Source of the DNA: Paludibacterium paludis
GTDB taxonomy: Bacteria; Pseudomonadota; Gammaproteobacteria; Burkholderiales; Chromobacteriaceae
Direction: 5' to 3'
DNA length: 64,000 bases
Assembly: GCF_018802605.1 (NCBI RefSeq)
Contig: NZ_CP069161.1
Location: 1,302,001 to 1,366,000, forward strand
The position numbers were made by a program, and so were the translations under genes. The notes beneath the pieces were generated by a model. It saw only the letters and a list, made by a program, of their open reading frames with translations, ran no database searches and was not told the origin of the DNA. Of this stretch, positions 13,131-31,484 are shown piece after piece (within the stretch, counting starts at the first letter, position 1; every line of letters starts with the position of its first letter).

Positions 13131-13826
13131 TTATCCCCCGCGCCACACTTTCCGGCCGATCACCCGGAACAGGTCCAACTGCTCGCCTTTGACCTCGATG
13201 TTCTCGAATTCGGGGTTTTCCGATTTGAGCAGCACGCCGCCGGCGATGCGCTGGATCGTCTTGATGTAGAACTGGTCATCTAGGCACACCGCGTAAATCT
13301 CCCCGTCGATGATGTCTTTCTGGGTGGTGTCGATCAGCACCGTGTCCCAGTCCTCCAGCTTGGGTTCCATCGACCGGCCTCTCACGTACAAGGCCTTGCA
13401 GTGCTCCGGCGTGATCCGTTTGTGCTGGAACCAGCGGGCGCGGAACGCCAGCGGGTCCTTCTGGTTGATGACCCACTGAATGTTGCCCAGGCCCGCGGAG
13501 AGATGGACATCGTATCTGTCCACCATGACGTATTGGTCGGGATTCAATTCGTCGAGCGAGTGATAGGGGCGGATCGAGGCGGCTTCCGGGGCCACCGGCA
13601 GCGGCGCGGTCGGCCAGTGTTCGATCGGCTCCTCGCCGCGCAATTGCGCCACCGTGATGCCATAGCGGTCGGCGATCGGCTTGAGGGTGGCGTGGCGCGG
13701 ATCGCGGCTTTCGCCCCGCAGGATCCGGAAAATGGTCGGTTGCGGCACACGCGTGGCATCGGCCAGTCCGTTTTGCGTGTCACCGGCTTCCGTCATCAGG
13801 CGCTGAAGGATGTCTTTGAGTTCCAT
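13131..13826 (-). CDS. CI/LexA-like self-cleaving repressor (HTH + S24 peptidase)
   Basis: A 231-residue regulator with an N-terminal helix-turn-helix (about residues 5-60, with a TRVPQPTIFRILRG recognition region) and a C-terminal S24 peptidase. Ser152 (RGRSMEP) and Lys189 (FYIKTI) are the expected catalytic dyad, and Ala111-Gly112 (LSAGLG) is a cleavage bond of the LexA/CI type. Such proteins self-cleave on RecA filaments after DNA damage and release their promoters. It faces away from the tail genes, as PrtR does in R-pyocin loci. Its -10 TATAAT ends about 7 bases before the ATG and no Shine-Dalgarno is present, so the mRNA is probably leaderless. Confidence 0.92.
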   Translation of the reverse strand: MELKDILQRLMTEAGDTQNGLADATRVPQPTIFRILRGESRDPRHATLKPIADRYGITVAQLRGEEPIEHWPTAPLPVAPEAASIRPYHSLDELNPDQYVMVDRYDVHLSAGLGNIQWVINQKDPLAFRARWFQHKRITPEHCKALYVRGRSMEPKLEDWDTVLIDTTQKDIIDGEIYAVCLDDQFYIKTIQRIAGGVLLKSENPEFENIEVKGEQLDLFRVIGRKVWRGG

Positions 13827-13833
13827 GATTCAA

Positions 13834-13862
13834 ATTATACGCTAATGTATGATTTTTTGAAA
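13834..13862 (-). promoter_or_regulatory. promoter of the tailocin repressor gene
   Basis: Read on the minus strand: TTTCAA (13857-13862), a 17-base spacer and a perfect TATAAT (13834-13839). Transcription would start at about 13827, essentially on the start codon, giving a leaderless message. Confidence 0.7.
13837..13850. promoter_or_regulatory. operator-like site 1 (repressor promoter)
   Basis: ATACGCTAATGTAT has ATAC/GTAT dyad ends and overlaps the -10 and spacer of the repressor promoter. It matches site 2 at 10 of 14 positions, as expected if the repressor controls its own gene. Confidence 0.55.
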
Positions 13863-13874
13863 CCCGTTTACGTA

Positions 13875-13903
13875 TTGTTTGTTATGCGTTTGTGTATTAT
13901 TCT
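13875..13903 (+). promoter_or_regulatory. rightward promoter for the gene at 13968
   Basis: TTGTTT (13875-13880), a 17-base spacer and TATTCT (13898-13903) read away from the repressor. Operator-like site 2 fills the spacer. Confidence 0.6.
13884..13897. promoter_or_regulatory. operator-like site 2 (rightward promoter)
   Basis: ATGCGTTTGTGTAT lies exactly between the -35 and -10 of the rightward promoter, so a bound repressor would block it. It is related to site 1 (10 of 14). A weaker, partly matching stretch sits near 13867-13880. Confidence 0.5.
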
Positions 13904-13967
13904 GTAGTGAGTGGGCCGGGCAAAAACCGGTTCATCTCAGCATTTGCGTAGATCACAAGGGGAAACG

Positions 13968-14495
13968 ATGGAATTCACAACGGTGAGAGGTCTGGTGGGG
14001 TGGGCATTTCAAATGAGCGCCGCCGTGCCGGTCAGCGTGCAGACCTACCGGGAACGGGTCGGCTCCGTCATGCGGGAGTTGACGCCGGCCGAACAGAAAA
14101 ACATGGCGATGGATATTCTCGCCAAGGTCGGGCGCCTCAAACCTCAGGAATACGCGGCGATCGCCGCTTACTTCACCCGTGATATCCGCGCGATCAATGA
14201 GGCGGCCAAGGCGCTGCCCGCCGGGTGGCCGACACCCTTGCGACGTGAACTGACTCGTGGCTGGGCCAACGACCAGATTCTGGAGCGGGACCAGAAAACC
14301 ATGGCCGAAACCTATCTGCTGTCGGAGCCGAGCATGACGCGACGCAAGCAGCAGGCGTTCCGGTTGCTCGACGCCCATTTCGTCACCGGCCTGAATGTCC
14401 TGGAAGTTCAGGTGCAGGATTGTCTGTCGCGACCCGTCCGGCGCGATACGGCGGGAGGGCGAAGCGCCGTCGGTTCGATATGCTACGCGGCGTGA
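13968..14495 (+). CDS. unknown tailocin-locus protein, candidate regulator
   Basis: A 175-residue protein I do not recognise. It is rich in charged helices, has no signal peptide or membrane segment, and ends in a basic segment (RPVRRDTAGGR). AAGGGGAAACG before ATG 13968 is a good ribosome site. It is the only gene driven by the promoter divergent from the repressor and it precedes the tail operon, the position held by PrtN-type activators in R-pyocin loci and by late regulators in phages. A role as activator or antiterminator of the tail genes is inferred from position only. It could equally be an unrelated early protein. Confidence 0.7.
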   Translation: MEFTTVRGLVGWAFQMSAAVPVSVQTYRERVGSVMRELTPAEQKNMAMDILAKVGRLKPQEYAAIAAYFTRDIRAINEAAKALPAGWPTPLRRELTRGWANDQILERDQKTMAETYLLSEPSMTRRKQQAFRLLDAHFVTGLNVLEVQVQDCLSRPVRRDTAGGRSAVGSICYAA

Positions 14496-14970: not shown

Positions 14971-14999
14971 TTGCCATGTCCGGTGAAATTTTTTATACT
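14971..14999 (+). promoter_or_regulatory. tail-operon promoter
   Basis: TTGCCA (14971-14976), a 17-base spacer and TATACT (14994-14999): the same hexamers and spacing as the tRNA-Ser promoter in this window. Transcription would start near 15006, a few bases before a terminator hairpin. No repressor-type operator is seen in it. Confidence 0.75.
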
Positions 15000-15010
15000 G
15001 TTTGCAGCTA

Positions 15011-15040
15011 CCCGAATTGCGTCCGCAGTTCGGGTTTTTT
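15011..15040 (+). terminator. leader terminator immediately after the tail promoter
   Basis: CCCGAA (15011-15016) pairs with TTCGGG around a TGC/GCA inner stem and is followed by six T. With a start near 15006, transcripts would end after about 35 bases unless terminator read-through occurs. Confidence 0.8.
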
Positions 15041-15103
15041 GTTTTCCGGGGGGATGCGGCGCATCGTTCGCGATTCGTCCCGAACAACCACCGGATCCCA
15101 TGG

Positions 15104-15136: not shown

Positions 15137-15217
15137 CATTGGTGCGTCCATGTTGGATTCCTTGCCGGGACATTTTCCATACGCCCGAAATCCGGGCATT
15201 TCTATTGGGAACAGATA

Positions 15218-15517
15218 ATGCATTGCGAATACGCCAAAACTATTTGCGACGCTGTGTATCTGCGCGAAGGACAGCAAGTGCTCATGCCGACCGGGCGTGC
15301 CGCGACGGTCACGGCGTTGCGGCACGGGACGGTGCTGTTCCGTTACCTGGATACACAAAAGCACGATGAAGTCGAACTGACGCGGCAGCAGGTCTCCCGG
15401 CTGGTGGGCGTCGCTTGGCATCACGTCGACCGTCACCGCCTCAGGGCGGTGTTTCTTTATCCGGAACCGCCGGTTTCCGACTTGCCCGGCAAAGGAGCGC
15501 GTGCATGGCCGATCTGA
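15218..15517 (+). CDS. small unknown protein at the head of the tail operon
   Basis: A 99-residue protein I do not recognise. Residues about 18-60 (GQQVLMPTGRAATVTAL, then a VLFRYLD strand) alternate like a small SH3/KOW-type beta barrel; that is only an impression. No good ribosome site precedes ATG 15218. Its 3' end overlaps the next gene's start by 13 bases, which supports translation in the same operon. It is probably a minor tail or regulatory factor. Confidence 0.65.
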   Translation: MHCEYAKTICDAVYLREGQQVLMPTGRAATVTALRHGTVLFRYLDTQKHDEVELTRQQVSRLVGVAWHHVDRHRLRAVFLYPEPPVSDLPGKGARAWPI

Positions 15518-16326
15518 TGGATGTGCAGGATGCCCTTAAAACACTGGTGAACGGCGCGCTGTATCCGGCGGGACCGGCCGCCGTGTCGGCGGCGGGCATG
15601 CCGGTAACGATCGACATCGGCATGCCCGCCCAGGCTCAGCTGGATACCGACCTCGCCGCCCAGCGTTGTCATGTGGCGATTTTCTCGCTGGAGAACGAGC
15701 GCAACACCACGCGTTTCTCGAAAACCTGGCGCACCCTGAAACGCGCCGATATCACCGTGAAGGCCGAGGTGGCCGGGCTGACCATTTCGCTGTCCGGAAG
15801 CACCGCGACCGCGCACAACATCATGGTCATCGCCGACAACACGGCGCGCAGCGTGGCCATCAAACCGGGGGGACGCCTGGTCGACGCGGTCGCGGCGCTG
15901 GCCGCGCAGTTTCCCGGCGCGGCGGCAAGCGGCGCCTCGCTGACGCTGCCCGCGCCGACGCGCCGCGTTATCGCCCGGGTGGGCGGCTTCGATACCGTGT
16001 CGCGCGATCTTTGCCATATCGAAAAGGATTTTGCGGTCACGATCCTCGCCGCCAATCAGGACCAGAAGCGCGCGCTGGCCCGCCTGCTGATGCCGCGTCT
16101 GGTGGATACGCGTTTTTTGGTGATGCCCGACGGCTCCCGCCCGAAAATGCTCTACCGCCGCTCGCTGGACAGCGACGGAGCCCAGAATGGCGCGCCCAGC
16201 CGGCGCGATATCGTGATGACCGTGGAGTATGCCATCACTCAATTGGCCGAGGCCGCCCAAGTTCTGTCGGTGACCGAAACCCTGTCCCCGGGCGCAGGTC
16301 CGGTGGCGGCTTCCAAGGTGTTTTAA
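15505..16326 (+). CDS. tail completion/terminator-like protein upstream of sheath
   Basis: A 273-residue protein immediately 5' of the sheath gene, where contractile-tailed phages keep proteins that cap or complete the tail. The start ATG 15505 has AGGAG upstream. The protein has alternating beta-rich segments (HVAIFSLENERNTTRF, LTISLSGSTATAHNIMV) and a C-terminal region with VMTVEYAITQ. I cannot place it in a named family with certainty. A headless particle still needs a cap at the top of the tube, and this is the best candidate. Confidence 0.65.
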   Translation: MADLMDVQDALKTLVNGALYPAGPAAVSAAGMPVTIDIGMPAQAQLDTDLAAQRCHVAIFSLENERNTTRFSKTWRTLKRADITVKAEVAGLTISLSGSTATAHNIMVIADNTARSVAIKPGGRLVDAVAALAAQFPGAAASGASLTLPAPTRRVIARVGGFDTVSRDLCHIEKDFAVTILAANQDQKRALARLLMPRLVDTRFLVMPDGSRPKMLYRRSLDSDGAQNGAPSRRDIVMTVEYAITQLAEAAQVLSVTETLSPGAGPVAASKVF

Positions 16327-16465: not shown

Positions 16466-18013
16466 ATGCCCGTTTATCCCGTTGGACAACTCAATACCGC
16501 CGCCCTGCAGACTCCCGGCGTCTATATCCAGGTCATTCCGCCGAAGACCCGTGTCATCAACGGCGTGCCGACCGATATCTATGGCCAGGTCGGCGTTGCC
16601 TCCTGGGGGCCGGTGAATGCGCCGACGCTGGTCGGCAGTCCGACCGACGCTGTCGGCTTGTTCGGCACGCAGCAGGTGCGCAAGTACGATCTGGCCAGCG
16701 CCATTGCCGTCGGCATGCAGATCGGCGCGACCAACCAGCGTATCGTGCGCGTCACCGACGGCACCGATACCGCCGCGACCGCCAAACTGATGGATTCGGC
16801 CGCTTCGGCGGCGGTCGGCATGACCCTGACCGCGCAGTACACCGGCACGGTCGGCAATACCCTGACCGCCTCGCTGTCCGCCGGCACACGGCCCAACAGC
16901 TTCAAGCTGATGGTGCAGCGCCAGGGCTTCGCCCCGGAAATCTTCGATGGCATCACCGGCAGCGGTGCGGCCTTGTGGAGCAGTCTGGTCAGCGCCGTCA
17001 ATAACGGCATTTCCAGCGTGCGCGGTCCGTCCACGCTGGTGACCGCCACTGTCGGCGCCTCGAGTGCGGCGCCGGCCCTGGGCGCTGTGGTCAACTTCGC
17101 CGGCGGCACCGACGGCGCGGCCGGAGTGAACGACGCATCGCTGATCGGTTCGGATGGCACGGTCCGCAAGGGGATGTACGCGTTGCGCGGCTCGGGCGTC
17201 CAGGTGATGAACCTCGTGGATCTGACCGACGCGACGCAATGGCCCAATATCGCGGCATTCTGCGCTGCCGAAGGCGTGTACGGCTTTACCCAGGGCGCGG
17301 CGGGTGCCAGCTGCCAGACCGTTTCCACCGCGCTGAACACCTCGGGGGTCGACTCTCCGTACCTGAAGGTGCTGGTTGGTGACTGGATTTACTGGCAGGA
17401 CACCGTCAATGGCCAGAACCGCATGATGGCCCCGGCGTCCTTCCTCGCCGCCCGCTGCGCGGCGCTCGCGCCGCACATGTCGACGCTGAACAAGCCGATC
17501 GGCAACGCCACCGGTACGCAACGCGTCGCCCAGAACCAGCCCTACAGCGGCGCCGAAATCGGTTCCGTGGTGGGCGCGCGCCTGGATGTGGTCGGCAATC
17601 CGTCGCCGGGCGGCAACTACTATGCGGGCCAGACCGGCCGCAACACCTCGTCGGATCCGACCCGCAACGGCGACAACTACACGCGGATGACCAACTTCAT
17701 CGCGCTGACGCTCGCCGGCGCGTTCGGTTACGCGATCGGCCAGAACCAGACGCCGGACCTGCGCCGCGAGGTCAAGAGCGCGATCGAGACCTTCCTGTTG
17801 AATCTGCAGCGCCAGAACATGATCGGCGATGTCAACGGCGGTCCGTCCTTCTCGGTGAAGCTCGACAAGGAAAACAACCCGGACGATCGTGTCGCGCTGG
17901 GTTACATGCAGGCCGATGTTCAAGTGAAGTACCTGTCGGTGATCTTCTATTTCATCGTCAACCTGGAGGCCGGTCAGTCCGTCACCGTGCAGGTCGCCAA
18001 CAACCCACGCTAA
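16466..18013 (+). CDS. contractile tail sheath protein
   Basis: A 515-residue tail sheath protein that forms the outer contractile tube. The N-terminus has the usual TPGVYIQVIPP handshake strand (about residues 16-26). The C-terminal domain has IETFLLNLQRQNMIG and a final extended strand (LSVIFYFIVNLEAG) that links neighbouring subunits. The length is typical of Mu- and P2-type sheaths. TGGAGAC precedes ATG 16466. A sheath defines the particle as R-type (contractile), not F-type. Confidence 0.95.
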   Translation: MPVYPVGQLNTAALQTPGVYIQVIPPKTRVINGVPTDIYGQVGVASWGPVNAPTLVGSPTDAVGLFGTQQVRKYDLASAIAVGMQIGATNQRIVRVTDGTDTAATAKLMDSAASAAVGMTLTAQYTGTVGNTLTASLSAGTRPNSFKLMVQRQGFAPEIFDGITGSGAALWSSLVSAVNNGISSVRGPSTLVTATVGASSAAPALGAVVNFAGGTDGAAGVNDASLIGSDGTVRKGMYALRGSGVQVMNLVDLTDATQWPNIAAFCAAEGVYGFTQGAAGASCQTVSTALNTSGVDSPYLKVLVGDWIYWQDTVNGQNRMMAPASFLAARCAALAPHMSTLNKPIGNATGTQRVAQNQPYSGAEIGSVVGARLDVVGNPSPGGNYYAGQTGRNTSSDPTRNGDNYTRMTNFIALTLAGAFGYAIGQNQTPDLRREVKSAIETFLLNLQRQNMIGDVNGGPSFSVKLDKENNPDDRVALGYMQADVQVKYLSVIFYFIVNLEAGQSVTVQVANNPR

Positions 18014-18082: not shown

Positions 18083-18514
18083 ATGCCTATCGGCGAATTT
18101 TCCACCGGACGCGACGTGTCCCTCGACTTCATTACTCCGACCGGTCCGCTGCGCCTTGCCGGCCTGAAGAACTTCAGCTCCAAGCAGGATCTGACCGACA
18201 AGAAGATCAAGCTGATCAACGGCCGTACCGTCCACCAGCGTTTCTTCGACGGCTGGTCCGGAGCCTTCGAGGCCGAGCGGGCGGATTCGACGCTGGATGA
18301 TTACTTTTGCGCGCTGGAAGACAACTACTTCTCCGGCAACCCGGAGAACCCCATCACCATTACCGAAACCGTCAATGAACCGGACGGCAGCATCAGCCAG
18401 TACCGTTTCGAGGGCGTGCTCCTCAAACTGGACGACGCCGGCGCCTGGAAGGCCGACGAAACCGTTCCCCAGAAAGTCAGCTTCGTGGCCGAGCGCCGCA
18501 GAAAGGTGGCCTGA
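18083..18514 (+). CDS. tail tube protein
   Basis: A 143-residue protein forming the inner tube inside the sheath. Its size and place directly after the sheath match phage tube proteins (Mu M / P2 FII type). It has beta-rich features such as LRLAGLKNFSSKQDLTDKK and WSGAFEAERADS. An AGGAG precedes ATG 18083. The stop is two bases before the chaperone gene, so the two are likely co-translated. Confidence 0.88.
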   Translation: MPIGEFSTGRDVSLDFITPTGPLRLAGLKNFSSKQDLTDKKIKLINGRTVHQRFFDGWSGAFEAERADSTLDDYFCALEDNYFSGNPENPITITETVNEPDGSISQYRFEGVLLKLDDAGAWKADETVPQKVSFVAERRRKVA

Positions 18515-18516: not shown

Positions 18517-18906
18517 ATGGCCAAAGTCACCGTAAAACACTCCGCGGCTCAGGCCGCCGCACCGGCCGCCAGTCTGCAGGCGCGCCTTGACCGCACGGTC
18601 GAGGTGACCGACGCGCTGGGCCGCACCCTGACTCTCAAGAAACCCGGCGTGCTCGATCAGTTGCACCTGATCGAAACGCTGGGCGCGACGGCCAAGAACG
18701 ATATGTATCTGAACATCGTGGTGCCGATCCTGTATGTGGTGGCCATCGACGGCGACACGGTCTACAAGCCCGCGAGCAAGCGGGAGCTCGAAGCGATTGT
18801 CCAGCGTCTGGACGAGGACGGCTTGCAGGCCGTCGCCAAGGGGGTGGAAGAGCACTTCGCCGCTCCGGCCGGTGAGGCCGGGTTCAAGGAGGCGTTGGGA
18901 AACTGA
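18517..18906 (+). CDS. tail assembly chaperone, short form
   Basis: A 129-residue protein with LGRTLTLKKPGVLDQLHLIE, the pattern of tail assembly chaperones that sit between tube and tape measure. These coat the tape measure during tail building and are absent from the finished particle. A slippery heptamer sits directly on its last codons (see 18897-18903), so a longer form is also expected. ATG 18517 follows the tube stop by two bases. Confidence 0.87.
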   Translation: MAKVTVKHSAAQAAAPAASLQARLDRTVEVTDALGRTLTLKKPGVLDQLHLIETLGATAKNDMYLNIVVPILYVVAIDGDTVYKPASKRELEAIVQRLDEDGLQAVAKGVEEHFAAPAGEAGFKEALGN

Positions 18907-19076
18907 TTCGCTCCGGGCCGCTTCGCGAATGCCTCTGGCTGGTAAAGAACGGCGTGCCGTTCGATATCGCTTTTTCCCTGGAGGAGGTGGAGCGGGCGGC
19001 CTGGGGCATCATTTTTTCCGAGTTCAGGGGCAATACGTTCGATCTGCAGCGCATGGAGTTCGAACGCCATGACTGA
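18517..19076 (+). CDS. tail assembly chaperone, frameshifted long form
   Basis: Joining 18517-18903 to 18903-19073 by a -1 shift gives 186 residues. The extension (57 residues, starting LIRSGPLREC and including WLVKNGVPFDIAF and WGIIFSEFRG) is coding-like, has no start codon or ribosome site of its own, and stops at 19074-19076, just before the tape-measure gene. In other tails the extension contacts the tape measure and the short part recruits tube subunits. The frameshift is inferred from sequence. Confidence 0.83.
18897..18903 (+). promoter_or_regulatory. -1 programmed frameshift site GGGAAAC
   Basis: In frame the heptamer is G GGA AAC, an XXXYYYZ slippery sequence immediately followed by the TGA stop at 18904. 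Slipping back one base pairs the tRNAs with GGG and AAA and opens a 57-codon frame. Phage lambda G/GT uses the near-identical GGGAAAG. Confidence 0.85.
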
Positions 19077-19166
19077 GGCGACGCCTGCGCGGGGCGGGCG
19101 GGGGAGCGCCCGTCCGCTCCGCGGCAAGATGGCGCGCCGGGTCATGGATTGATCAGGAAAGACATT

Positions 19167-21023
19167 ATGAGCGATTCAATCACGGCCGCGGGCGGGATCG
19201 ACGGGCTCGATTCGATGAATCTGAGCCTGTTGACGCTGACCGACCTGCTGGGCATGGCCGAGGCGTCCGCTTACCGGCTGGCCGGGCGGTTGCGCAGCGT
19301 CGGCGAACTGATGCAGCTGGGCGAGCGGCTGATCGGCACCGGGCATGGTGTGCTCGGGCTGTTTCAGAGCGCCTCGCGGGAGCTGCATCACCTGGGGCGG
19401 GAGGCCGAGCACCTCAAGGCCATCCGTCTTGGCGATGCGATGACACAGGAAGCCGGTCGCCTGGCGCGCGGTGTGACCGAGTTCAGCGTCAGCGCGAACC
19501 TGTCGCTGTCGCTGGTGGCCTCGGCGGTGGCGACGTTGTCCGGCAAGGTGACCGCCTCCTTGCGCACGGCGCCGGCCATCGAGCGCGCCGCGCGCCAGGC
19601 GCCACAAGACAGTGCCGGGCGGTCCCCGTCGCCCCCTGGCGGCGCGCCGGCCGCCGGACATGGCGCTTCGGGCTCCGTGCCCGCCGGTTCGTCCGGACCG
19701 TTTCTGCGCGGTATGGTCGCCCTCGGCATGGCGATGGACCGGTTCGGTGACCGCCTGATCGGGCTGGGCGGACGCGTCTCGGAGGCGGGAGGCAAGGTGG
19801 TGGCGTTCGGCGAGCGCACCGTCGCCTTCGGCCGGGACATCGTCGCGGCCGGCGCCAGGGTCTCGGCATTCGGCGACCGGGTGGCGGGCGTTGGCCGCCG
19901 TACCATCGAGATCGGCAACGGCGTCGATACGGCCGGGCAACGGATCTTCGCGTTCGGCCAGCGCGCGCAGGCGGCCGGCGGCCGTATTGTCGATGCCGGC
20001 GAGCGGATGCAGTCCTTCGGCAAGGAGACCTCTGTGCTGGGCGGCCGGCTGTCCGGTCTTGGCGCGTCGCTGCAGGGGTGCGGTGGCCGAACCGGGCAAT
20101 TCGGACAGTTCCTGAGTCAGCTTGGCGGCAACCTGTCGACCTCCGGCGATCGCATCGCCCGATTGGGGCAGAGCGCGGTCACGCTGGGCTCGCAGGTGAT
20201 CGAAGGCGCCAGCCAGGTGATGAAGCTGGGCGTCCGGGTGAGCGAAGCCGGCAAGCAGATCGTTTCGCTTGGTGGCCACGTGCTGGAGGCCGGGGGCAAG
20301 ATCGCCGGCGCGGGCCGGAAGATCGGCGAGGTGGGCGGGCGTGTTATCGGATTTGGCCAATCGGTCATCCAGTCCGGCAAGGGTATCGAGAACTTTGGCG
20401 GCCGGATCGCCGAGATGGGCAAGGACGTCAAGAAGGCCGGCGGCCAGGTGGTCGACTACGCCGGCAAGCTCGGCTCCATGGCCGGTCAGGTGCGGCAATC
20501 CTTCCTGCCCGCCCTCAAGGAGTCGATCGGCATGGCCGGCCGGCTGGCCAGTTCGGGATTGTCTTCGCTGCTGGGTGGGGTGACCAAGGGGTTCAACCTG
20601 GCCACCTCCGGCGTCAAGCTCTTGGGCGGCGGCGTGCAGGTATTCGGCCGGGCGCTCCTGCTCAACCCGATCGGTCTGGCCATCGCCGCGATCGCCGCGG
20701 CGGTGTATCTGTTGTGGAGCAACTGGAGCACGATCGGCCCGAAAATCAAGGCGATCTGGACCGATATCTGCGATGGCGTGATGTCGGCGTTCAACAAGAT
20801 CAGGAGCCTGTTCGGTTTTGGCGACAGTACCCCGGCCAAACGGCCGCAGGTCACGCCGCCGGCCGTGTCGCCGTCGACCCAGGTGCACACCGCGATTCAT
20901 CTGGACAGCCGCAAGATCGCCGAATCGGTCTCCAAACACCAGGCACGGGAAATGGGCAAACCGGCCGCCGCGGCAAGCGGTTTCAATCCGCGGCTTGGCA
21001 TGCCCGTGCCCAGCATGAGGTAA
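19167..21023 (+). CDS. tape measure protein
   Basis: A 618-residue tape measure that sets tail length. Residues about 190-440 are a ladder of heptad-like repeats with a glycine about every seventh position (GGRVSEAGGKVVAFG and some 30 similar units), predicted to be helical. Near residue 495-520 is a hydrophobic segment (LNPIGLAIAAIAAAVYLLW) that may enter the target membrane. ATG 19167 has AGGAAA upstream; an in-frame ATG at 19149 lacks one. At about 0.15 nm per residue the tail would be roughly 90-95 nm (inference). Confidence 0.9.
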   Translation: MSDSITAAGGIDGLDSMNLSLLTLTDLLGMAEASAYRLAGRLRSVGELMQLGERLIGTGHGVLGLFQSASRELHHLGREAEHLKAIRLGDAMTQEAGRLARGVTEFSVSANLSLSLVASAVATLSGKVTASLRTAPAIERAARQAPQDSAGRSPSPPGGAPAAGHGASGSVPAGSSGPFLRGMVALGMAMDRFGDRLIGLGGRVSEAGGKVVAFGERTVAFGRDIVAAGARVSAFGDRVAGVGRRTIEIGNGVDTAGQRIFAFGQRAQAAGGRIVDAGERMQSFGKETSVLGGRLSGLGASLQGCGGRTGQFGQFLSQLGGNLSTSGDRIARLGQSAVTLGSQVIEGASQVMKLGVRVSEAGKQIVSLGGHVLEAGGKIAGAGRKIGEVGGRVIGFGQSVIQSGKGIENFGGRIAEMGKDVKKAGGQVVDYAGKLGSMAGQVRQSFLPALKESIGMAGRLASSGLSSLLGGVTKGFNLATSGVKLLGGGVQVFGRALLLNPIGLAIAAIAAAVYLLWSNWSTIGPKIKAIWTDICDGVMSAFNKIRSLFGFGDSTPAKRPQVTPPAVSPSTQVHTAIHLDSRKIAESVSKHQAREMGKPAAAASGFNPRLGMPVPSMR

Positions 21024-24295: not shown

Positions 24296-25420
24296 ATGGC
24301 TTTCAATATCAAGACATGGCCGCAGCTGGTCAGCGACCAGGTGACGGCGATCCAGGCGCGCGCGGCGGGACTGGTCGACACCACGATCGGTTCGCTGATG
24401 CGCGCGCTGGCCGAGAGCAACGCCAGCGTGGTGCAGTGGTTGCAGCAGCTGGTGCTGCAGCTTTTGGCGCGTACCCGGGCGTCGACCTCGTCCGGCGAGG
24501 ATCTGGACAGCTGGCTGGCGGACTTCGGCTTTGCGCGCCTGCCGGCCGTCGAGGCACGCGGCTTCGTGACCTTCGCCCGCTTCACGCCCAATCTGCCGGC
24601 ACTGATCCCGGCGGGCGCCACGGTGGAGACGGCGGACGGCAGTCAGTCCTATGTGGTGGTGCCCGATGCCTCGAACCCGGCCTGGAGCGCCGAGCGCAAC
24701 GGCTACGCCTTGCCGGCCGGCGCGCGCGAGATCGCGTTGCCGGTGGTGGCGCGGCGGCCCGGGGAGAAGGGCAATGCGCTCTCGGGAATGGTGACACAGA
24801 TCACCGGCGCGATTCCGGGCGTCGATACCTGCGTCAACGCCGCCGCGATGGCGGGCGGACGCAACGCCGAATCGGACGACGCGGTCCGCGCGCGCTTCGT
24901 GGCCTGGGTGGCGAGCCTGTCCAAGGCCACCCGGGCGGCGGTGGAGTACGCCGTGTTGTCCATGGCGCAGGGCATGAGCTGCGTGGTGGTGGAGAACCGG
25001 CGCTACGACGGTGTGGCGCAGCCGGGGTTTTTCTATGTGGTGGTGGATGACGGCACCGGCAGCCCCACCGCCACGACCCTGTCGTCGGCCTATAACGCCA
25101 TCGATCTGGTCCGGCCGTTCACCTCGACCTTCGCGGTGTTCAAACCCGCGCGGCTGTCCGCCTCGATCCGGCTGGCGATCCGCACCGACGGTTCGGTCGA
25201 TCACAACGATGCCTGCAATCTGGTGCGCCAGGCCATCATCGACTACGTGAACCGCTTGAAACTCGGGCAGTCGCTGCCCTGGTCGATGATCGCGAGTCTT
25301 GCCTACGCCGCGAGCCCGGCCATCACCAACGTGACCGATCTCACGCTCAACGGCGGAACGGCCGATCTGATCGCATCGGGACAACAGGTGATCAAGACCA
25401 CGGATGTGGGGGTGATCTGA
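24296..25420 (+). CDS. baseplate J-like protein
   Basis: A 374-residue Baseplate_J family wedge protein (Mu gp47 / T4 gp6-like). Features include GSLMRALAESNASVVQWLQ in the N-terminal helical part, LIPAGATVETADG, then GRNAESDDAVRARF and a C-terminal domain. Its stop TGA and the next ATG overlap by one base, so it is coupled to the following gene. Confidence 0.9.
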   Translation: MAFNIKTWPQLVSDQVTAIQARAAGLVDTTIGSLMRALAESNASVVQWLQQLVLQLLARTRASTSSGEDLDSWLADFGFARLPAVEARGFVTFARFTPNLPALIPAGATVETADGSQSYVVVPDASNPAWSAERNGYALPAGAREIALPVVARRPGEKGNALSGMVTQITGAIPGVDTCVNAAAMAGGRNAESDDAVRARFVAWVASLSKATRAAVEYAVLSMAQGMSCVVVENRRYDGVAQPGFFYVVVDDGTGSPTATTLSSAYNAIDLVRPFTSTFAVFKPARLSASIRLAIRTDGSVDHNDACNLVRQAIIDYVNRLKLGQSLPWSMIASLAYAASPAITNVTDLTLNGGTADLIASGQQVIKTTDVGVI

Positions 25421-26070
25421 TGAAAGGCGATGTGAAGGATTTTGTCAGGCGGCTGGCCACCCAGCTGCCGCCCTGGTTCGGCGACGACAATCCGGTGCGC
25501 GACGCGGTGCTCGAAGGACTCGCCACGGCGCATGCCTGGTTCTTTTCGTTTTACCTCTACGTGCGCGCCCAGACCCGGCTGCTGAGCATGGCGGATTCCG
25601 CGCTCGATCTTTTCGCGCTGGATTTCTTCGGCGAGGCGTTCCGGCGCGGCGCCGGCCAGTCGGACAGCAGTTTTCGCAACCGGATCCGCATCAACCTGTT
25701 TCGCGAGCGGGGCACGCGCCGCGCGGTCGAGGACGTGCTGCTGGAGCTGACCGGCCGCGCACCGGTGGTCATCGAACCGGCGCGCATGTCCGACTGCGGC
25801 GCGGTCGGCGTGAACCTGGCGCTGGGCGCGGCGGGCTATGTGGGGTCGCTCACCCTGCCGTTCCAGGCCTTCGTCACCGCCTTCAGGCCGCGCGGCAACG
25901 GCGCCGCGGGTTACCCCGGCGTGGCCAGCAACCCGTTCGGACTCGGCATCAACGCCATCGTGGCGCCGGAAAGCGTCATGCGCCCGAGCGTCAGCGACGC
26001 GGACATCCTCGCCGCGATCAACGCCGTGAAACCGGCCGGCACGCTCGTCTGGGCGCGCATCAGTCACTGA
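25420..26070 (+). CDS. tail protein I / Mu gp48-like baseplate protein
   Basis: A 216-residue protein in the place of P2 gpI / Mu gp48, linking the wedge to the fibres. It shows a helical N-terminal half (LDLFALDFFGEAFRRG, SFRNRIRINLFRERGTR) and a Gly-rich second half (GAAGYPGVASNPFGLGI). It follows the J-like gene with a one-base overlap and precedes the first fibre by 21 bases. Confidence 0.8.
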   Translation: MKGDVKDFVRRLATQLPPWFGDDNPVRDAVLEGLATAHAWFFSFYLYVRAQTRLLSMADSALDLFALDFFGEAFRRGAGQSDSSFRNRIRINLFRERGTRRAVEDVLLELTGRAPVVIEPARMSDCGAVGVNLALGAAGYVGSLTLPFQAFVTAFRPRGNGAAGYPGVASNPFGLGINAIVAPESVMRPSVSDADILAAINAVKPAGTLVWARISH

Positions 26071-26091: not shown

Positions 26092-27426
26092 ATGCGTCGT
26101 GAAACGATTTACCCCGGCCAGATCCTGCCGGAAACCACGCTGCTCAACATGGGCCGCGACACCCTCGCCGGCATGGGCCGGCTGATGCAGGACATCTTCG
26201 GCGGCGGCCCGGCCGTGGCGGGCTTCGCCTGCACGCCGACCGCCCCGGCGAGCCTGCAGGTGAACATCGCTCCGGGCAGCATCTACACCCTGCAACCCCT
26301 GGAAGCGACCGCCTGGTCGACGATGGGCGCCGATACCGGCCACACCACCGTCAAACAGGGCCTCCAGCCGGAGATCACCGCCCTGACCATCACCCCGCCG
26401 GCGGTGGTGGGCATGGCCATCAACTACTTGGTTCAGGTCGCCTACCAGGATCAGGACATCAACCCGATGGTGCTGCCGTACTACAACAGCCAGAACCCGA
26501 ACCAGCCCTTCACCGGCCAGGGCAACAACGGACAAAGCCAGGCCACCGCGCGGGACGGCGTGGCCGTGGTGTCGCTCAAAGCCGGCATCGCCGCCGCCAG
26601 CGGCAGCCAGCAGACTCCGGCGCCGGACAGCGGCAATGTCGGGTTGTGGGTGATCACGGTGCTGAACGGGCAAACCACGGTGACCAACCAAAACATCGCC
26701 CCGTACCCGAACGTGCCGTACCTCAACCCGAACATGCTGGGCACGACGCCGACCCTGCTGCAAACTCCGCCCCAGTTCGACAAGTCGACCCGGGTGGCGA
26801 CGACGGAGTTTGTGCAGCGGGCGCTGGGGAACTTTCAGTCAGGCGTTGAATTCTACGAGTCAACGACACTTAGCGCATCCGATACCGGTAAGTGGATTAA
26901 TTTGGCCAGTGCAACGCCGTTTACTGTCACCATGCCATCCTTGGCCTCAGTGCCTGAGGGCGCTGCATTTCTGATCCATTCCGACTCCACACCAATAACA
27001 CATACATTGGTGGCCACCGGGAATGATAGATTTGTCGCCGCTGGCGTTAAGTATTCGACATTACCCCTTGGGCAAGGTGAGTTTCTGATTGTGACCAAAG
27101 CAGCGACGGTTTGGCGGACAGCCGGTACTGCCGTACTGAAGAACGAGGCGCAATTCCGCGCGTCCTTCATCGGAAATGGCTGGCAAAAGTTGCCGAGTGG
27201 TTTGATTATTCAGTGGGGGCAGATTCTCGTCATTACAGCAAATACCCAAACACAATTTAAATTTCCACTGACGTTCCCTAATGCCACTCTTGCGCTCTAT
27301 TCTTCCGCCATCAACAGTGGAACCACGGTTGTTAGCACGGATGGGTGTTGGTTCGATACGGCAATAGGTAGTGTAGTTGCGTCAGGACCAAATATTACAG
27401 TTAATTGGTTAGCCATCGGGTATTAA
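26092..27426 (+). CDS. tail fibre protein, cassette 1
   Basis: A 444-residue receptor-binding fibre. The first about 246 residues are nearly the same as in the second fibre (27959) and should attach to the baseplate. The last about 198 residues are different and end with a gp53-like fold beginning GNGWQKLPSGLIIQWG. The divergent part is visibly richer in A and T than its surroundings, a sign of exchange. AGGAGCACGCA precedes ATG 26092. Confidence 0.88.
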   Translation: MRRETIYPGQILPETTLLNMGRDTLAGMGRLMQDIFGGGPAVAGFACTPTAPASLQVNIAPGSIYTLQPLEATAWSTMGADTGHTTVKQGLQPEITALTITPPAVVGMAINYLVQVAYQDQDINPMVLPYYNSQNPNQPFTGQGNNGQSQATARDGVAVVSLKAGIAAASGSQQTPAPDSGNVGLWVITVLNGQTTVTNQNIAPYPNVPYLNPNMLGTTPTLLQTPPQFDKSTRVATTEFVQRALGNFQSGVEFYESTTLSASDTGKWINLASATPFTVTMPSLASVPEGAAFLIHSDSTPITHTLVATGNDRFVAAGVKYSTLPLGQGEFLIVTKAATVWRTAGTAVLKNEAQFRASFIGNGWQKLPSGLIIQWGQILVITANTQTQFKFPLTFPNATLALYSSAINSGTTVVSTDGCWFDTAIGSVVASGPNITVNWLAIGY

Positions 27427-27435: not shown

Positions 27436-27867
27436 ATGTATTTTAGCCAATCAACTGGCGGATTTTATGACGAGTCTGTTCACTGTAACCTGATGCCTCC
27501 CGACTCCGTCGAATTAACAGACAAACACTATCGGTCACTGCTGGATGGTCAATCGGTTGGAAAGCAGATTGTGGCTGTAGCGGATGGCAAACCGGTGTTG
27601 GTCGATCCTCCAGAACCGACTACCAATCAGTTGGCGGTTCAAGCTCGAATTCAACGTGATGGCCTTGTCAGTTCGAGCGATTGGATTGTCGCCCGTCATC
27701 GTGACCAACTCGATGCCGGGAGCAAAACCAGTTTGCCCGCATCTCAGTACACGGAGTTGATCCAGTATCGCCAGATGCTACGCGATGTGCCGGCACAGAA
27801 GGGATTCCCCTCTTCGATCAATTGGCCCACGTCCCCCGCTTGGCTGAAAACCCTGACTCAGTCGTAA
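27436..27867 (+). CDS. tail fibre assembly chaperone, cassette 1
   Basis: A 143-residue fibre-assembly chaperone of the Mu U / P2 G class, which helps its own fibre trimerise. The N-terminus (MYFSQSTGGFYD) and C-terminus (LRDVPAQKGFPSSI) are typical. AAGGAG precedes the ATG. The N-terminal part differs from the cassette 2 chaperone in step with the fibre tips, as expected for matched pairs. Confidence 0.87.
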   Translation: MYFSQSTGGFYDESVHCNLMPPDSVELTDKHYRSLLDGQSVGKQIVAVADGKPVLVDPPEPTTNQLAVQARIQRDGLVSSSDWIVARHRDQLDAGSKTSLPASQYTELIQYRQMLRDVPAQKGFPSSINWPTSPAWLKTLTQS

Positions 27868-27958: not shown

Positions 27959-29311
27959 ATGCGTCGTGAAACGATTTATCCCGGTCAGATCCTGCCGGAA
28001 ACCACGCTGCTCAATATGGGGCGCGACACCATGGTCGGCATGGGCCGGTTGATGCAGGACATCTTCGGTGGCGGTCCGGCCGTGGCAGGCTTCGCCTGCA
28101 CGCCGACCGCGCCGGCGAGCCTGCAGGTGAACATAGCACCGGGCAACATCTACACTCTGCAGCCTCTGGAAGCCACTCCCTGGTCGAGTCTTGGTGCCGA
28201 TACCAGCCGCACAGTGGTGAAGCAGGGGATTTTGCAGGATGGAACCTCCTTGACGATCACCCCGCCCACCGCAGCTGGGCAAGCCATTAACTATCTGGTT
28301 CAGGTTGTCTACCAAGACCAGGATATCAACCCGACCGTTTTGCCGTACTACAACAGCCTGAATCCGAATCAGCCTTTTACCGGTCAGGATAACAACGGAC
28401 AAAGCCAAGCCACCGCGCGTGACGGCGTGGCCGTGGTGTCGCTCAAGGCCGGCATCGCCGCCGCCAGCGGCAGCCAGCAGACTCCGGCGCCGGACAGCGG
28501 CAACGTCGGGTTGTGGGTGATCACGGTGCTGAACGGGCAAACCACGGTGACCAACCAAAACATCACCCCGTACCCGAACGTGCCGTACCTCAACCCGAAC
28601 ATGCTGGGCACGACACCGACTCTGCTGCAAACCCCGCCCCAGTTCGACAAGTCCACCCGGGTGGCGACGACGGAGTTTGTGCAGCGGTCGCTGGGATGTG
28701 TACGCGGTGAGCGAGTGATCTCGGGGTCGGTTGCGCTATCGGCAGATGATGTTGGCGCGATGATTATCGGTGCTGCCAGTTCTAATTGCGTCGTAACGTT
28801 ACCACCTGCATCGGTTGCAGCTGGTGCGCAGGTCCACTTTTTTAACCGCAGCTCGACTTCTGTTGTTTCGGTGCAACCATCGTTGGCCGACATTATAGAC
28901 ACCTCGGCAGGTAATTTCCCGATTTTGCTCGCACGGGGTGACTCGGCTATTTTTGAGTCGAACGGCTCTGGAACGTGGCGGCTTTCAGGCGGTAGCGCAT
29001 CGCTACGGTCTGCAACAGATTTTGCATCAAGTACCTACCCCGGCAACGGTTGGCAGCGGTTGCCGAGCGGGTTGATCATTCAGTGGGGCACAGTAAATAT
29101 GGCGAATGGCACGTCAGGGCCCCTGTTGTTCCCCATGGCGTTCCCGAGCATGGTTTTAATGCTAACGACCGGACCTAATGGATGGGGGTCATTCACTTAT
29201 GGATGGAGCAATCTAACCCAGGCCGGATTCACCATGCTTAGTTGGATTTCTTCCACTGGCACCCCTGTGTCAGGCCCGTCTTCTGGATCATTTTTTGCCA
29301 TTGGGAGATAG
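27959..29311 (+). CDS. tail fibre protein, cassette 2
   Basis: A 450-residue second fibre. The first about 246 residues match fibre 1 closely, with almost only third-base changes across the last third of that shared region. The C-terminal about 200 residues are unrelated except for the GNGWQRLPSGLIIQWG motif that opens the gp53-like tip. The ribosome site GGGAGCACGCA is the same as for fibre 1. A second tip suggests a second receptor. Confidence 0.88.
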   Translation: MRRETIYPGQILPETTLLNMGRDTMVGMGRLMQDIFGGGPAVAGFACTPTAPASLQVNIAPGNIYTLQPLEATPWSSLGADTSRTVVKQGILQDGTSLTITPPTAAGQAINYLVQVVYQDQDINPTVLPYYNSLNPNQPFTGQDNNGQSQATARDGVAVVSLKAGIAAASGSQQTPAPDSGNVGLWVITVLNGQTTVTNQNITPYPNVPYLNPNMLGTTPTLLQTPPQFDKSTRVATTEFVQRSLGCVRGERVISGSVALSADDVGAMIIGAASSNCVVTLPPASVAAGAQVHFFNRSSTSVVSVQPSLADIIDTSAGNFPILLARGDSAIFESNGSGTWRLSGGSASLRSATDFASSTYPGNGWQRLPSGLIIQWGTVNMANGTSGPLLFPMAFPSMVLMLTTGPNGWGSFTYGWSNLTQAGFTMLSWISSTGTPVSGPSSGSFFAIGR

Positions 29312-29315
29312 AATT

Positions 29316-29744
29316 TTGTTCTATTCGAAGTCTAGCGGTTTTTATAGCCGCCAACTCCACTGTGCGGCAATTCCCTCCGACGCCGTTGAACTGACCGATG
29401 CCCAGTACCGGGCTCTCTTGGACGGCCAGGCGGCCGGGAAACGGATCGTCGCCGGGGCGGACGGCAAACCGGTTTTGGCCGATCCGCCGGCACCGACCGC
29501 CGATCAGCTCGCCGTGCAGGCACGCGCCCGGCGCGATGCTCTGGTGGGTTCGACCGACTGGGTGATCGCACGGCATCGCGATCAGGTCGAGACCGGCGTC
29601 AAAACCAGTCTCTCCGGCGCGCAGTACACCGAGCTGATGCAGTACCGCCAGGCGCTGCGCGACGTGCCGGCGCAGAAGGGCTTTCCTTCTTCGATTGCAT
29701 GGCCCGCACCCCCTTCGTGGCTTGCCGCTCTGCCCCAATCCTGA
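29316..29744 (+). CDS. tail fibre assembly chaperone, cassette 2
   Basis: A 142-residue paralogue of the chaperone at 27436, high in identity over the C-terminal two thirds. The start is taken as TTG 29316 because GGGAGA precedes it, it lies just after the fibre stop, and the resulting N-terminus (FYSKSSGFYS) lines up with cassette 1. The in-frame ATG at 29295 lies inside the fibre gene without a ribosome site. Confidence 0.82.
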   Translation: MFYSKSSGFYSRQLHCAAIPSDAVELTDAQYRALLDGQAAGKRIVAGADGKPVLADPPAPTADQLAVQARARRDALVGSTDWVIARHRDQVETGVKTSLSGAQYTELMQYRQALRDVPAQKGFPSSIAWPAPPSWLAALPQS

Positions 29745-29761
29745 CCCGCCTTGTGCGGGTC
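29743..29761 (+). other. hairpin after the fibre cassettes
   Basis: A perfect 7-bp stem GACCCGC/GCGGGTC overlaps the chaperone stop and is followed by GTTCTCTTT. A weak terminator between tail and lysis genes. Confidence 0.45.
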
Positions 29762-29782
29762 GTTCTCTTTCTGGAGGTCTGT

Positions 29783-30106
29783 ATGCACATCGTGATTCGC
29801 GATGCGGTGCGTCTCACCCTGTTGTTGCTGGGCGGGCTCACGCTGGTCGCTCTGGCGGACGGGCATCTGGCGTTGTTCGGTTTGCCCCCCGCCGCGGGCG
29901 CGCCGATCGAGTTCGCCGGCTGCGCGCTCTTCGCCACCGCCATGGCCCACCTGATCCGCCGGCTGCTGTTTCACCGGCTGGATCTGCAGCATTTCGCCCT
30001 GCGCGCCTTCGAGCATCCGGTCGGAGCGGGGCTTGTGGTGCTGGGGCTGTGCATGGTGATCCAAGCACTGATGCCGATTCTCACCGTGATGCTGACGAAA
30101 GGGTAG
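29783..30106 (+). CDS. small membrane protein, putative holin
   Basis: A 107-residue protein with three hydrophobic segments (about residues 9-30, 43-60 and 78-102) and a charged middle loop with RRLLFHRLDLQH. It opens the lysis block, with GGAGG before ATG 29783. Holins make the inner-membrane holes that release endolysin, and size, topology and place fit; there is no family match I can state, so the holin role is inferred. Confidence 0.7.
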   Translation: MHIVIRDAVRLTLLLLGGLTLVALADGHLALFGLPPAAGAPIEFAGCALFATAMAHLIRRLLFHRLDLQHFALRAFEHPVGAGLVVLGLCMVIQALMPILTVMLTKG

Positions 30107-30109
30107 GCC

Positions 30110-30778
30110 ATGCGCAGGATCATCATCGGCTGGCTGATGGTCCTGCCGGCCCTGGCCGGCGGACTGCCGCCCAATGCCGTGAAGTACTTGCCCCTCCTGG
30201 CCCGCGACGCGGCGGTGGTGTTGCCCGAAGTGCGTCCGCGCTCGGTGTTCGCCGGGCAGATCGAGCAGGAAACCTGCCCGAGTCTTGCCAGCGCCAAGTG
30301 CTGGAATCCGCACGCAGAACTTGCCACCGATCGGGAGTACGGTTTCGGACTCGGGCAATTGACCGTCACCCGCCGCTTCGACAACTTCGCGGACGTTAAA
30401 ACCCGCGACCGGAGTCTTGCCGGCTGGGCGTGGTCTGACCGGTTCGACCCCATGCGCCAGATCCGCGCCATGCTGGTGATGGACCGCGAGTGCCGGCGTC
30501 ATGCCGTGGGCGCCGCGGGGGACGACGCCACCGCCATGATGCTCGCCTGCTACAACGGGGGCGGCGGCGGGCTGCGCGCCGACCGGGCGCTGTGCCGCAA
30601 CACACCGGGCTGCGATCCGGCGCGCTGGTGGGGGCATGTGGAAAAAACCAGCAACAAAAGCCGCAAGAAGTGGAAGGGATATGGCAAATCCGCTTTCGAG
30701 GTCAACAGGGAGTACCCGCACAACATCATCCGTGTGCGGGCTCCTCGCTACCGGCCATACCTGGATGAGGGGGGATGA
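30110..30778 (+). CDS. lytic transglycosylase-like endolysin
   Basis: A 222-residue peptidoglycan-cleaving enzyme. The N-terminus (RRIIIGWLMVLPALAGG) is a signal or signal-anchor segment, so export could be by Sec. The fold resembles SLT/lysozyme: the likely catalytic Glu54 in IEQET, YGFGLGQLT (about 87-95) and the ACYNGG motif (about 151). It starts four bases after the putative holin and overlaps the next gene by four bases. It frees tailocin particles by lysing the producing cell. Confidence 0.8.
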   Translation: MRRIIIGWLMVLPALAGGLPPNAVKYLPLLARDAAVVLPEVRPRSVFAGQIEQETCPSLASAKCWNPHAELATDREYGFGLGQLTVTRRFDNFADVKTRDRSLAGWAWSDRFDPMRQIRAMLVMDRECRRHAVGAAGDDATAMMLACYNGGGGGLRADRALCRNTPGCDPARWWGHVEKTSNKSRKKWKGYGKSAFEVNREYPHNIIRVRAPRYRPYLDEGG

Positions 30779-31041
30779 TGGACAGACACTGTGAATGCAC
30801 GGAGGTGGTGACGATGCCGCGCGAGGAGTTTCGGGAGTTGCTGGAGGAGGCGGCGCGCCAGGGCGCGGAAAAGGCCCTGATCGAAGCCGGGGTGTCGGAT
30901 GCCGTGAAGCTGGCGCGCCGCGTCGATGGTATCAGCGATGCCTTCTGGCGCGCCTTCATCGGGCTTTTGGTGGTCGGCCTCGGTACGGCGCTGTGGCAGG
31001 GCATGAAGGCCGTGGCGACACTCAAGACCGGAGGCAGCTGA
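30775..31041 (+). CDS. small membrane-anchored lysis-block protein
   Basis: An 88-residue protein with an acidic/helical N-terminal half (PREEFRELLEEAARQGAEKA) and one membrane segment near the C-terminus (FIGLLVVGLGTALWQGM). Overlapping ATGA couples it to the endolysin. It resembles small phage proteins found beside holins; it may be the true holin, an antiholin or an accessory factor. Function not established. Confidence 0.7.
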   Translation: MMDRHCECTEVVTMPREEFRELLEEAARQGAEKALIEAGVSDAVKLARRVDGISDAFWRAFIGLLVVGLGTALWQGMKAVATLKTGGS

Positions 31042-31043
31042 CC

Positions 31044-31484
31044 ATGAGGGTTCTCATTGTGCTGATCGCGGGGCTGGCCATCGGGTCGGCCCTGTTTTTT
31101 TGGGGACGCCACGAGGCGCGGACCGAGCTGGCGGCAAAAACCGCCATGGCCGCCGCCCGCGCCCGCGAGCGGGAACGGGCCGACGCGCAAGCGTTCGGTG
31201 TGATTGACCGGGAGCTGACTCATGCATGGAAAACACAACTCGATGAAAAAAATCGCACCATCGATGATTTGCGCTCTGGCGCTCTCAAGCTGCGCCGCCG
31301 TCTCGCCGCCCGTGTGCCCGACGCCCCGGCCGGTGCCGGACAGCGTGATGCGAGCGCGGCCGGCGGACTTCTCCCTGAAGATGCGGCGTTTCTTGTTCGG
31401 CTCGCCGCCGACGCCGATCGCAATACCGAACAGCTCGCCGCCTGCCAGCGGCTTCTGAGCGCCGAGCGCGCCGGGCCCGAATAG
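31044..31484 (+). CDS. Rz-like inner-membrane spanin
   Basis: A 146-residue i-spanin. It has an N-terminal anchor (LIVLIAGLAIGSALFFWG) and a periplasmic coiled coil rich in Arg/Glu/Ala (AAARARERERADAQAF, DEKNRTIDDLRSGALKLRRR). Together with Rz1 it fuses inner and outer membranes in the last step of lysis. GGAGGCAGCTGACC precedes ATG 31044. The Rz1 gene lies wholly within it in another frame. Confidence 0.83.
   Translation: MRVLIVLIAGLAIGSALFFWGRHEARTELAAKTAMAAARARERERADAQAFGVIDRELTHAWKTQLDEKNRTIDDLRSGALKLRRRLAARVPDAPAGAGQRDASAAGGLLPEDAAFLVRLAADADRNTEQLAACQRLLSAERAGPE
31243..31458 (+). CDS. Rz1-like outer-membrane spanin lipoprotein, nested in Rz
   Basis: A 71-residue lipoprotein in the +1 frame inside the Rz gene. 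The signal sequence KKIAPSMICALALSSC ends in a lipobox cysteine and is followed by a Pro-rich stretch (VSPPVCPTPRPVPDS), the usual form of o-spanins. Nested Rz/Rz1 pairs are well known in phages. Confidence 0.82.
   Translation: MKKIAPSMICALALSSCAAVSPPVCPTPRPVPDSVMRARPADFSLKMRRFLFGSPPTPIAIPNSSPPASGF

Follow-up and report, generated by a model that had tools for sequence, protein, structure and literature searches.

A probable R-type tailocin of Paludibacterium paludis with a predicted read-through switch

Within the 64,000-nucleotide (nt) stretch of the Paludibacterium paludis genome analysed here (the window; contig NZ_CP069161.1, positions 1,302,001 to 1,366,000), an island of about 18 kb (13131–31484) encodes a contractile phage tail. 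It raises the question whether a tail with no recognised head serves its host as a bacteriocin or is what remains of a prophage, and how it would be switched on. Judged from its genes alone, the element is probably a vertically inherited R-type tailocin with an AlpA/Q-like read-through switch. By analogy with its class, the headless tail most likely kills rival bacteria, and the gene arrangement suggests induction upon DNA damage through a transcription read-through protein. An intact R-tailocin, as proposed in an earlier note on this DNA, is the best reading of a headless orthologue in the closest species, purifying selection in 14 genes and the lack of matching head genes in the genome. The genomes compared are that of P. 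paludis (G000), a metagenome-assembled genome (MAG) called Pseudogulbenkiania, representing the closest species (G005), Paludibacterium yongneupense (G001), P. purpuratum (G004), a Paludibacterium MAG (G002) and the prophage-carrying Aquitalea genomes of A. aquatilis (G024), A. magnusonii (G028, locus L055) and G035.

Control region

The island begins with the following features (window coordinates):

13131..13826, minus strand: LexA/CI-like S24 repressor of 231 amino acids (aa); PF00717 at 6.6e-22; Ala111-Gly112, Ser152 and Lys189 kept
13968..14495, plus strand: predicted AlpA/Q-like processive antiterminator of 175 aa, from its predicted fold; alternative GTG start at 13911
14971..14999, plus strand: sigma70-type promoter TTGCCA-17-TATACT (pR'-like), 10 of 12 consensus matches
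15011..15040, plus strand: intrinsic terminator (tR'-like) directly behind the promoter; -17.9 kcal/mol, z -5.2
15218..15517, plus strand: small conserved open reading frame (ORF) of 99 aa, the first gene past the terminator, kept in headed relatives

Repressors of the S24 class cleave themselves at an Ala-Gly bond by means of a Ser/Lys pair. Both are invariant in six aligned repressors, which agrees with the self-cleaving repressor named in the earlier note. That note overlooked the likely partner, the regulator at 13968–14495, and its gene inventory also lacked the promoter and terminator (14971–15040) and the small ORF (15218–15517). The model predicted for the regulator has the AlpA/Q fold; AlpA heads the list of fold matches by 6 Z units and several rows below it are sigma region 4, a list in which the absence of a fold family proves nothing.

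A sigma70 promoter followed by an intrinsic terminator stands at the head of the presumed target operon. Only 3 of 3000 random 53-mers from the window reach the promoter score of 10. In a scan at threshold 9, the aligned promoter was called in the window only, other sites were called in G024 and L173, and none in the remaining five sequences; the weaker promoters of relatives were read by eye and then scored, and for L219 and G005 the scorer picked other sites. A candidate binding element, GCGTGA, was seen by eye in several spacers between -35 and -10. The promoter-terminator block follows the regulator in six of the eight sequences first examined. A pattern drawn from these six matched 13 IMG/VR stretches (its single match in the window is no test, the window having contributed to the pattern). 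A regulator homologue lies upstream in 11 of the 13, although at least two of these contigs (L221 and L224) had themselves been used to draw it up; the remaining two matches appear chance-like. Identity of the 11 regulators to known members is 64–99% in four and 25–36% in seven, and the block starts 11–18 nt from the regulator's stop in nine and 965 nt from it in two.

Positions 14496–14970 of the window, about 475 nt with no convincing ORF, are absent from G005 and most relatives and look like an insertion. Elsewhere, at 46740–46821, a promoter-like site lies 30 nt ahead of a terminator-like hairpin, probably at a gene end.

With these parts, the switch may work as follows. SOS-activated RecA would trigger self-cleavage of the repressor, as its catalytic residues suggest, and its loss would free the divergent promoter of the 175-aa protein. 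Polymerase starting from the promoter at 14971 would normally halt about 35 nt on, at the hairpin, until the AlpA/Q-like protein loads onto it and permits read-through; the promoter-like site, the hairpin and the predicted fold are consistent with such an activity. One long transcript would then cover the small ORF, the tail, two fibre/chaperone pairs and the lysis proteins. As in other members of the class, lysis would free headless contractile tails which, with the specificity of their fibre set, would depolarise related cells.

Tail and lysis genes

A single compact element fills the space between tRNA-Ser(GGA) and an esterase gene at 31606. Apart from the divergent repressor, all genes from the regulator through Rz/Rz1 run in one direction. 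Besides the regulatory features, the locus comprises:

12785..12875, plus strand: tRNA-Ser(GGA), by ARAGORN; chromosomal anchor; a sister species has a related prophage attached at this tRNA
15505..16326, plus strand: pre-sheath protein (phrog_13532), possibly the tail terminator, a role suggested by position
16466..18013, plus strand: tail sheath (phrog_23, 1.9e-43)
18083..18514, plus strand: tail tube, by position (phrog_12993)
18517..19076, plus strand: tail assembly chaperone, 129 aa plus a -1 frameshift extension (GGGAAAC at 18897–18903)
19167..21023, plus strand: tape measure, 618 aa from ATG (phrog_28/58); alternative TTG start at 19149
21029..22183, plus strand: N-like protein, 384 aa (phrog_21362), named by position
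22180..23268, plus strand: baseplate hub, gpD/gp44-like (phrog_52, 1.7e-40; PF05954)
23265..23930, plus strand: baseplate spike, gpV/gp45-like (PF04717)
23927..24292, plus strand: baseplate wedge, W/gp25-like, GTG start, by profile match
24296..25420, plus strand: baseplate J (PF04865, 5.7e-31)
25420..26070, plus strand: baseplate I-like (phrog_26379)
26092..27426, plus strand: tail fibre 1, by profile match
27436..27867, plus strand: fibre assembly chaperone 1 (tfa1), by profile match
27959..29311, plus strand: tail fibre 2; shares 88% identity with fibre 1 over its first 738 bases, tip different
29316..29744, plus strand: fibre assembly chaperone 2, TTG start
29783..30106, plus strand: small holin-like protein of 107 aa, named from its position and hydrophobic appearance; matches no family
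30110..30778, plus strand: endolysin (phrog_669, 1.6e-20)
30775..31041, plus strand: small protein, 88 aa, weak DUF6127 match under cut-off
31044..31484, plus strand: Rz-like inner-membrane spanin (phrog_1327, 5.2e-14; Pfam just below cut-off)
31222..31458, plus strand: Rz1-like lipoprotein encoded inside Rz in a different frame; proline-rich with a lipobox-like LSSC, identified by eye

Sheath, tube, tape measure, baseplate and fibres are all present, in the expected order and with open frames, so that the complete tail of the earlier note holds; tube, N, holin, Rz1 and the pre-sheath protein are named by position or by eye, the other proteins by profile matches. Two bounds were corrected: N starts at about 21029, and W occupies 23927–24292. 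The frameshifted chaperone is borne out by a canonical -1 heptamer in the right register, which is kept in the closest relative. The lysis block consists of an endolysin and an Rz/Rz1-like pair together with the putative holin. The two fibre genes diverge after their shared 738 bases and each has its own chaperone; two fibre/chaperone pairs also occur in G005, and the two fibres possibly represent two receptor sets or a reserve.

The neighbours look chromosomal on both sides: seryl-tRNA synthetase, RarA/MgsA, amidase, NAD synthase and a FemAB-like protein upstream, and the esterase, a GGDEF protein and a periplasmic binding protein downstream. Rfam gave nothing at gathering score within 13–32 kb.

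Orthologue in the closest species and distribution

Of 61 genomes of the bacterial family, 9 contain the sheath at E 1e-30, among them that of P. paludis. Synteny across Chromobacteriaceae, the comparison suggested earlier, places the same headless element of G005 between the same flanking genes, with a FemAB-like gene and tRNA-Ser(GGA) at one end and the esterase and GGDEF genes at the other; in G005 the tRNA-Ser side lies about 10 kb farther from the element, with other genes intervening. Comparison of 14 element genes with their G005 counterparts (fibres, fibre chaperones, holin-like protein, 88-aa protein and Rz left aside) gave protein identities of 41–94% and a ratio of nonsynonymous to synonymous substitution rates (dN/dS) of about 0.03–0.44, a rough ratio with dS near saturation at about 1.0–2.6. 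Four flanking genes have dS values of 1.1–1.7. These values fit an element inherited with the chromosome under purifying selection. A clean empty site was not obtained; the esterase neighbour occurs in only three of the six genomes of the genus, this one included. In a phage collection, three records match the sheath, the nearest being Komagataeibacter phages phiKX1/2 with 36% identity and the same tail order.

Absence of head genes

Between tRNA-Ser and the esterase gene, no head, packaging, integration or replication gene was recognised, in line with the earlier note. As that note would have been refuted by capsid and terminase genes of the same element elsewhere in the genome, ten genomes were searched; the queries were the TerL, portal and gp212 sequences from G024 plus the G028 capsid. 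None of the four queries matched in G000 (a single contig of 4.07 Mb), nor in G005, G004, G002 or G003, and the positive controls G024 and G028 match all four. G035 contains TerL and gp212 and lacks this portal and capsid type; G014 has TerL and gp212 in pieces only. Head types thus vary among the relatives, with gp212 the only near-universal marker, and a different head module in P. paludis is less firmly excluded because other relatives have other head types. Such types were probed through gp212, PF05065, PF05125 and PF06074; PF05065 gave nothing in G000, and no Mu-type portal was found there.

A P2-type capsid at 3.21 Mb of G000 lies near its own 418-aa sheath at 3.23 Mb and belongs to a different element (G000:C1:3213024–3228196, loci L043–L045). 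At about 3.22 Mb, a fibre piece is 35–39% identical to that of the tailocin and a fibre chaperone shares 70% identity with tfa1; fibre parts may have been exchanged between the two elements. A 516-aa frame at G000:C1:2377129–2377386 has a sub-threshold sheath match. A P2-type R-pyocin was considered for the island itself and rejected: PF04984 does not match this sheath, and the gene order differs from that of P2 tails.

Repeated loss of the head

For the wider phage family, 162 sequences (157 loci, the window and four genome stretches) were profiled for TerL, portal, capsid and gp212. The loci were the best 80 from each of two lists, less three duplicates of the genome stretches; other near copies were kept. 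Protein gp212 (phrog_14605, e.g. L028:17082–17720), probably a head-tail joining protein, occurs in 142 sequences, 87 of which also contain a head gene; for the other 55 the headed status rests on gp212. It is absent from 20, of which 12 have less than 1.2 kb upstream and are undecidable. Hence 142 of 150 sequences with more than 1.2 kb upstream carry it, and the eight that lack it are headless candidates: the window, G005, G004, G002, two Ralstonia loci, one Herbaspirillum locus and one IMG/VR contig (L178) with only 4.5 kb upstream.

In a tree of 65 of the 112 usable rows (47 having been removed by a hand-made list, mostly near copies and distant or incomplete loci), five changes of headlessness are needed. 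A careful tree of 24 hand-picked rows, without the headless IMG/VR contig, needs four, also across the 5–95% bootstrap range; P. yongneupense was scored as headed in both. The approximately unbiased test rejected a single group of the window, G005, G004 and G002 (p 2.5e-4) and one of all seven headless loci (p 7e-27), p-values that are optimistic since the groups were chosen after the first tree had been seen. A. magnusonii, with head genes found, joins the window pair with support 100/100, and A. aquatilis, again with head genes found, falls inside the 96/99 group of G004 and G002. The elements of G004 and G002 are near tRNA-Pro(GGG), in G004 beside pheST. The sequences thus suggest at least four origins of headlessness in this phage family, and Paludibacterium apparently evolved such a weapon on two occasions, each at its own tRNA gene. 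Many independent origins of tailocins have been published (PMC12090994).

The other headless lineages differ in their control regions. In G002 and G004, a different, 169-aa Cys4 protein occupies the regulator position; a perfect TTGACA-16-TATAAT overlaps the stop codon of its gene, and tandem terminators precede the small ORF (at least two called, with a third GC-rich hairpin with a T-run visible in the sequence). Its model has a pLDDT (predicted local distance difference test) of 53, and profile comparison with the AlpA-like family gave nothing; from position and DNA, we would guess that it too is an antiterminator. At L057:8030–8700 and L134:2260–2960, a perfect consensus sigma70 promoter lies over the regulator's stop, followed by tandem intrinsic terminators. 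The headless Ralstonia loci (L072 and L073) have their own S24 repressor and a third regulator protein (phrog_19609, scanned in L073), with a called terminator and a weaker promoter, TTGCAC-17-TATTCT, read by eye where the automatic scan was empty. Behind the candidate regulator of Herbaspirillum (L068), neither a promoter nor a near terminator was found.

Origin of the element

In P. yongneupense, a related prophage (L035:5410–16764) begins at the same tRNA-Ser(GGA) beside FemAB. It carries genes for a tyrosine integrase, a RecT-like protein and an S24 repressor, and at its far end a 20-base direct repeat of tRNA bases 66–85. Its head is decaying: TerL is in pieces, the portal has a stop codon and no capsid matches, with gp212 intact. 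This prophage is a possible intermediate toward a tailocin. An att-bounded island was rejected for P. paludis, where a search with 14-base words from the 3' end of the tRNA found no second copy in the window. Integrase and att repeat are missing, yet the related prophage uses the same tRNA; the tailocin therefore occupies the site at which its own phage family attaches. Its ancestor was probably a temperate phage, integrated at tRNA-Ser, that shed its integrase, early and head modules.

The designation of the element as Mu-type holds for the order of the tail genes, which follows the established order of phage Mu. A strict Mu origin was rejected: in the nearest headed relative, A. magnusonii, a tyrosine integrase lies about 18 kb from TerL on the same contig, the att repeat of the P. 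yongneupense prophage derives from a tRNA, and none of these tail loci has a Mu-type portal (eight genomes searched; matches in G001 and G035 are on other contigs). The -1 heptamer likewise argues against it. The Mu-type portals on G001:C35 and on G035:C1, C13 and C48 represent separate Mu-like prophages. A search for the Mu transposase matched nowhere, controls included, and is uninformative; the distant phiKX1 has one ORF named transposase.

Alternative explanations

The element could be a real tailocin in which the 175-aa protein is an ordinary late-gene activator with sigma region 4 or a helix-turn-helix, and the hairpin merely ends an early transcript. ArpU/RinA and PrtN are late-gene activators. 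Several observations weigh against read-through and partly favour activation: some members of the regulator family match sigma-70 region 4, and one source names one member so; five of 25 show weak similarity to a family of CII-like regulators (best E 0.005); sigma region 4 stands beneath AlpA in the fold list, and the fold match concerns a helical protein, for which models can yield high Z; at the level of sequence, the regulator was found to match neither AlpA nor Q proteins. The hairpin lies just past the regulator's stop in most relatives and, at about +6 to +29, very near the predicted start site; the promoter matches 9–11 of 12 positions in some copies and only 7 in others. Unlike in most relatives, about 475 nt separate stop and promoter in the window, with the block itself kept; no such block follows the regulator in G001 or a partial match in G035. 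Several of the IMG/VR stretches are near copies, and seven of their 11 regulators are only distantly similar. Published antiterminators of this kind are themselves described as lacking evident sequence homology to one another (PMC9371919). Against an activator, the hairpin follows a -35/-10 pair, which in relatives reaches into the 3' end of the regulator gene, conservation of the block TTTGCAGC-NN-CCCGAA-NNN-CGTC seems to exceed what a terminator by itself would require, the independent tailocin of G002 and G004 has its perfect promoter ahead of tandem terminators, and AlpA leads the fold list. We therefore regard activation as unlikely and the read-through switch as the preferred reading.

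That the island is a decaying prophage remnant with no host function is improbable. The broken cousin at the same tRNA in P. yongneupense and the insertion-like stretch ahead of the promoter would suit decay, and the tape measure (41%) and the fibres, which diverge fast between P. paludis and G005, also count against a conserved weapon. However, the frames are open, dN is below dS in the 14 genes, lysis genes and regulators are kept, and the joining gene has gone together with the head. Tails capped by heads of the P2-like prophage at 3.21 Mb, in a satellite or helper-dependent element, appear very improbable: the genome does hold a P2-type capsid, but that element has its own sheath and the tailocin lacks the probable joining protein gp212 and any recognised terminase. 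Equally remote is an injection system like the extracellular contractile ones that would deliver a protein toxin instead of puncturing. A contractile tail without a head is common to both; nevertheless, no AAA+ ATPase or effector-like ORF was recognised, and the phage-type tape measure, gp53-like fibre tips, tfa chaperones and S24 repressor speak for a phage-derived tailocin.

Related systems and significance

PrtN exemplifies the activator type of tailocin control. The comparisons with published systems that follow are by description and draw on the available parts of the cited papers. Mu gene order indeed sets this element apart from P2-type tailocins, as the earlier note stressed; it is not new, however. 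The R-type syringacin of Pseudomonas syringae (Hockett 2015) derives from Mu or a phage of Mu order, independently of P2-type pyocins (PMC12090994, PMC6331570); it is likewise a Mu-related R-tailocin at a fixed chromosomal site, situated between trp genes and not at tRNA-Ser. Enterocoliticin of Yersinia enterocolitica has a Mu-order tail, a CI repressor, two upstream ORFs annotated as antitermination protein Q and no head genes (PMC13030884). It thus resembles this locus in tail order, repressor, putative antiterminator and headlessness, and a repressor plus Q in a tailocin is not wholly new because of it; its Q is known by annotation only, with no promoter, terminator or fold analysis described in the text available (PMC13030884). 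The alp switch of Pseudomonas aeruginosa (AlpR/AlpA/alpBCDE) combines a self-cleaving repressor, an antiterminator, a promoter followed by an intrinsic terminator, and lysis genes (PMC7969949, PMC9371919), with GGGACG as the reported binding element. All these components have counterparts here, the AlpA fold as a prediction; in contrast, alp controls lysis genes and not a tail, and no sequence similarity to this locus was detected. BceTMilo and the R-pyocins share headless contractile tails and lysis genes with this element, whereas their tail genes are P2/KL3-like and BceTMilo has Ogr late control and an integrase gene (PMC5411513).

The closest counterparts are the prophages of the family itself (A. 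aquatilis, A. magnusonii, IMG/VR contigs and, more distantly, phiKX1), which have the same tail genes in the same order. The A. aquatilis prophage also shares the regulator and the promoter-terminator block. Unlike the tailocin, these prophages carry terminase, portal, capsid and gp212 (the latter not checked in phiKX1). A literature search, largely without subscription papers, found no description of antitermination as tailocin control and no publication on a tailocin in Paludibacterium. The tailocin class is known; its likely control, the series of stages in head loss and the separate origins set this example apart.

It is conceivable, though in our view somewhat doubtful, that late-gene antitermination is a general pre-adaptation of phages to becoming tailocins. 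Loss of early and head genes would leave a minimal two-protein, all-or-none SOS switch, arrived at repeatedly and convergently with unrelated antiterminators: AlpA-like here, Cys4 in P. purpuratum and the Paludibacterium MAG, and a third type in Ralstonia. The head was repeatedly lost together with phrog_14605, whose absence may serve as a marker for tailocins of this phage family. A natural series leads from complete prophages, through one that is still at its att site while its head decays, to the headless element fixed at the same tRNA, and the locus offers a compact, testable circuit for the commitment to explosive release of a tail weapon, in which read-through control may be set against an activator.

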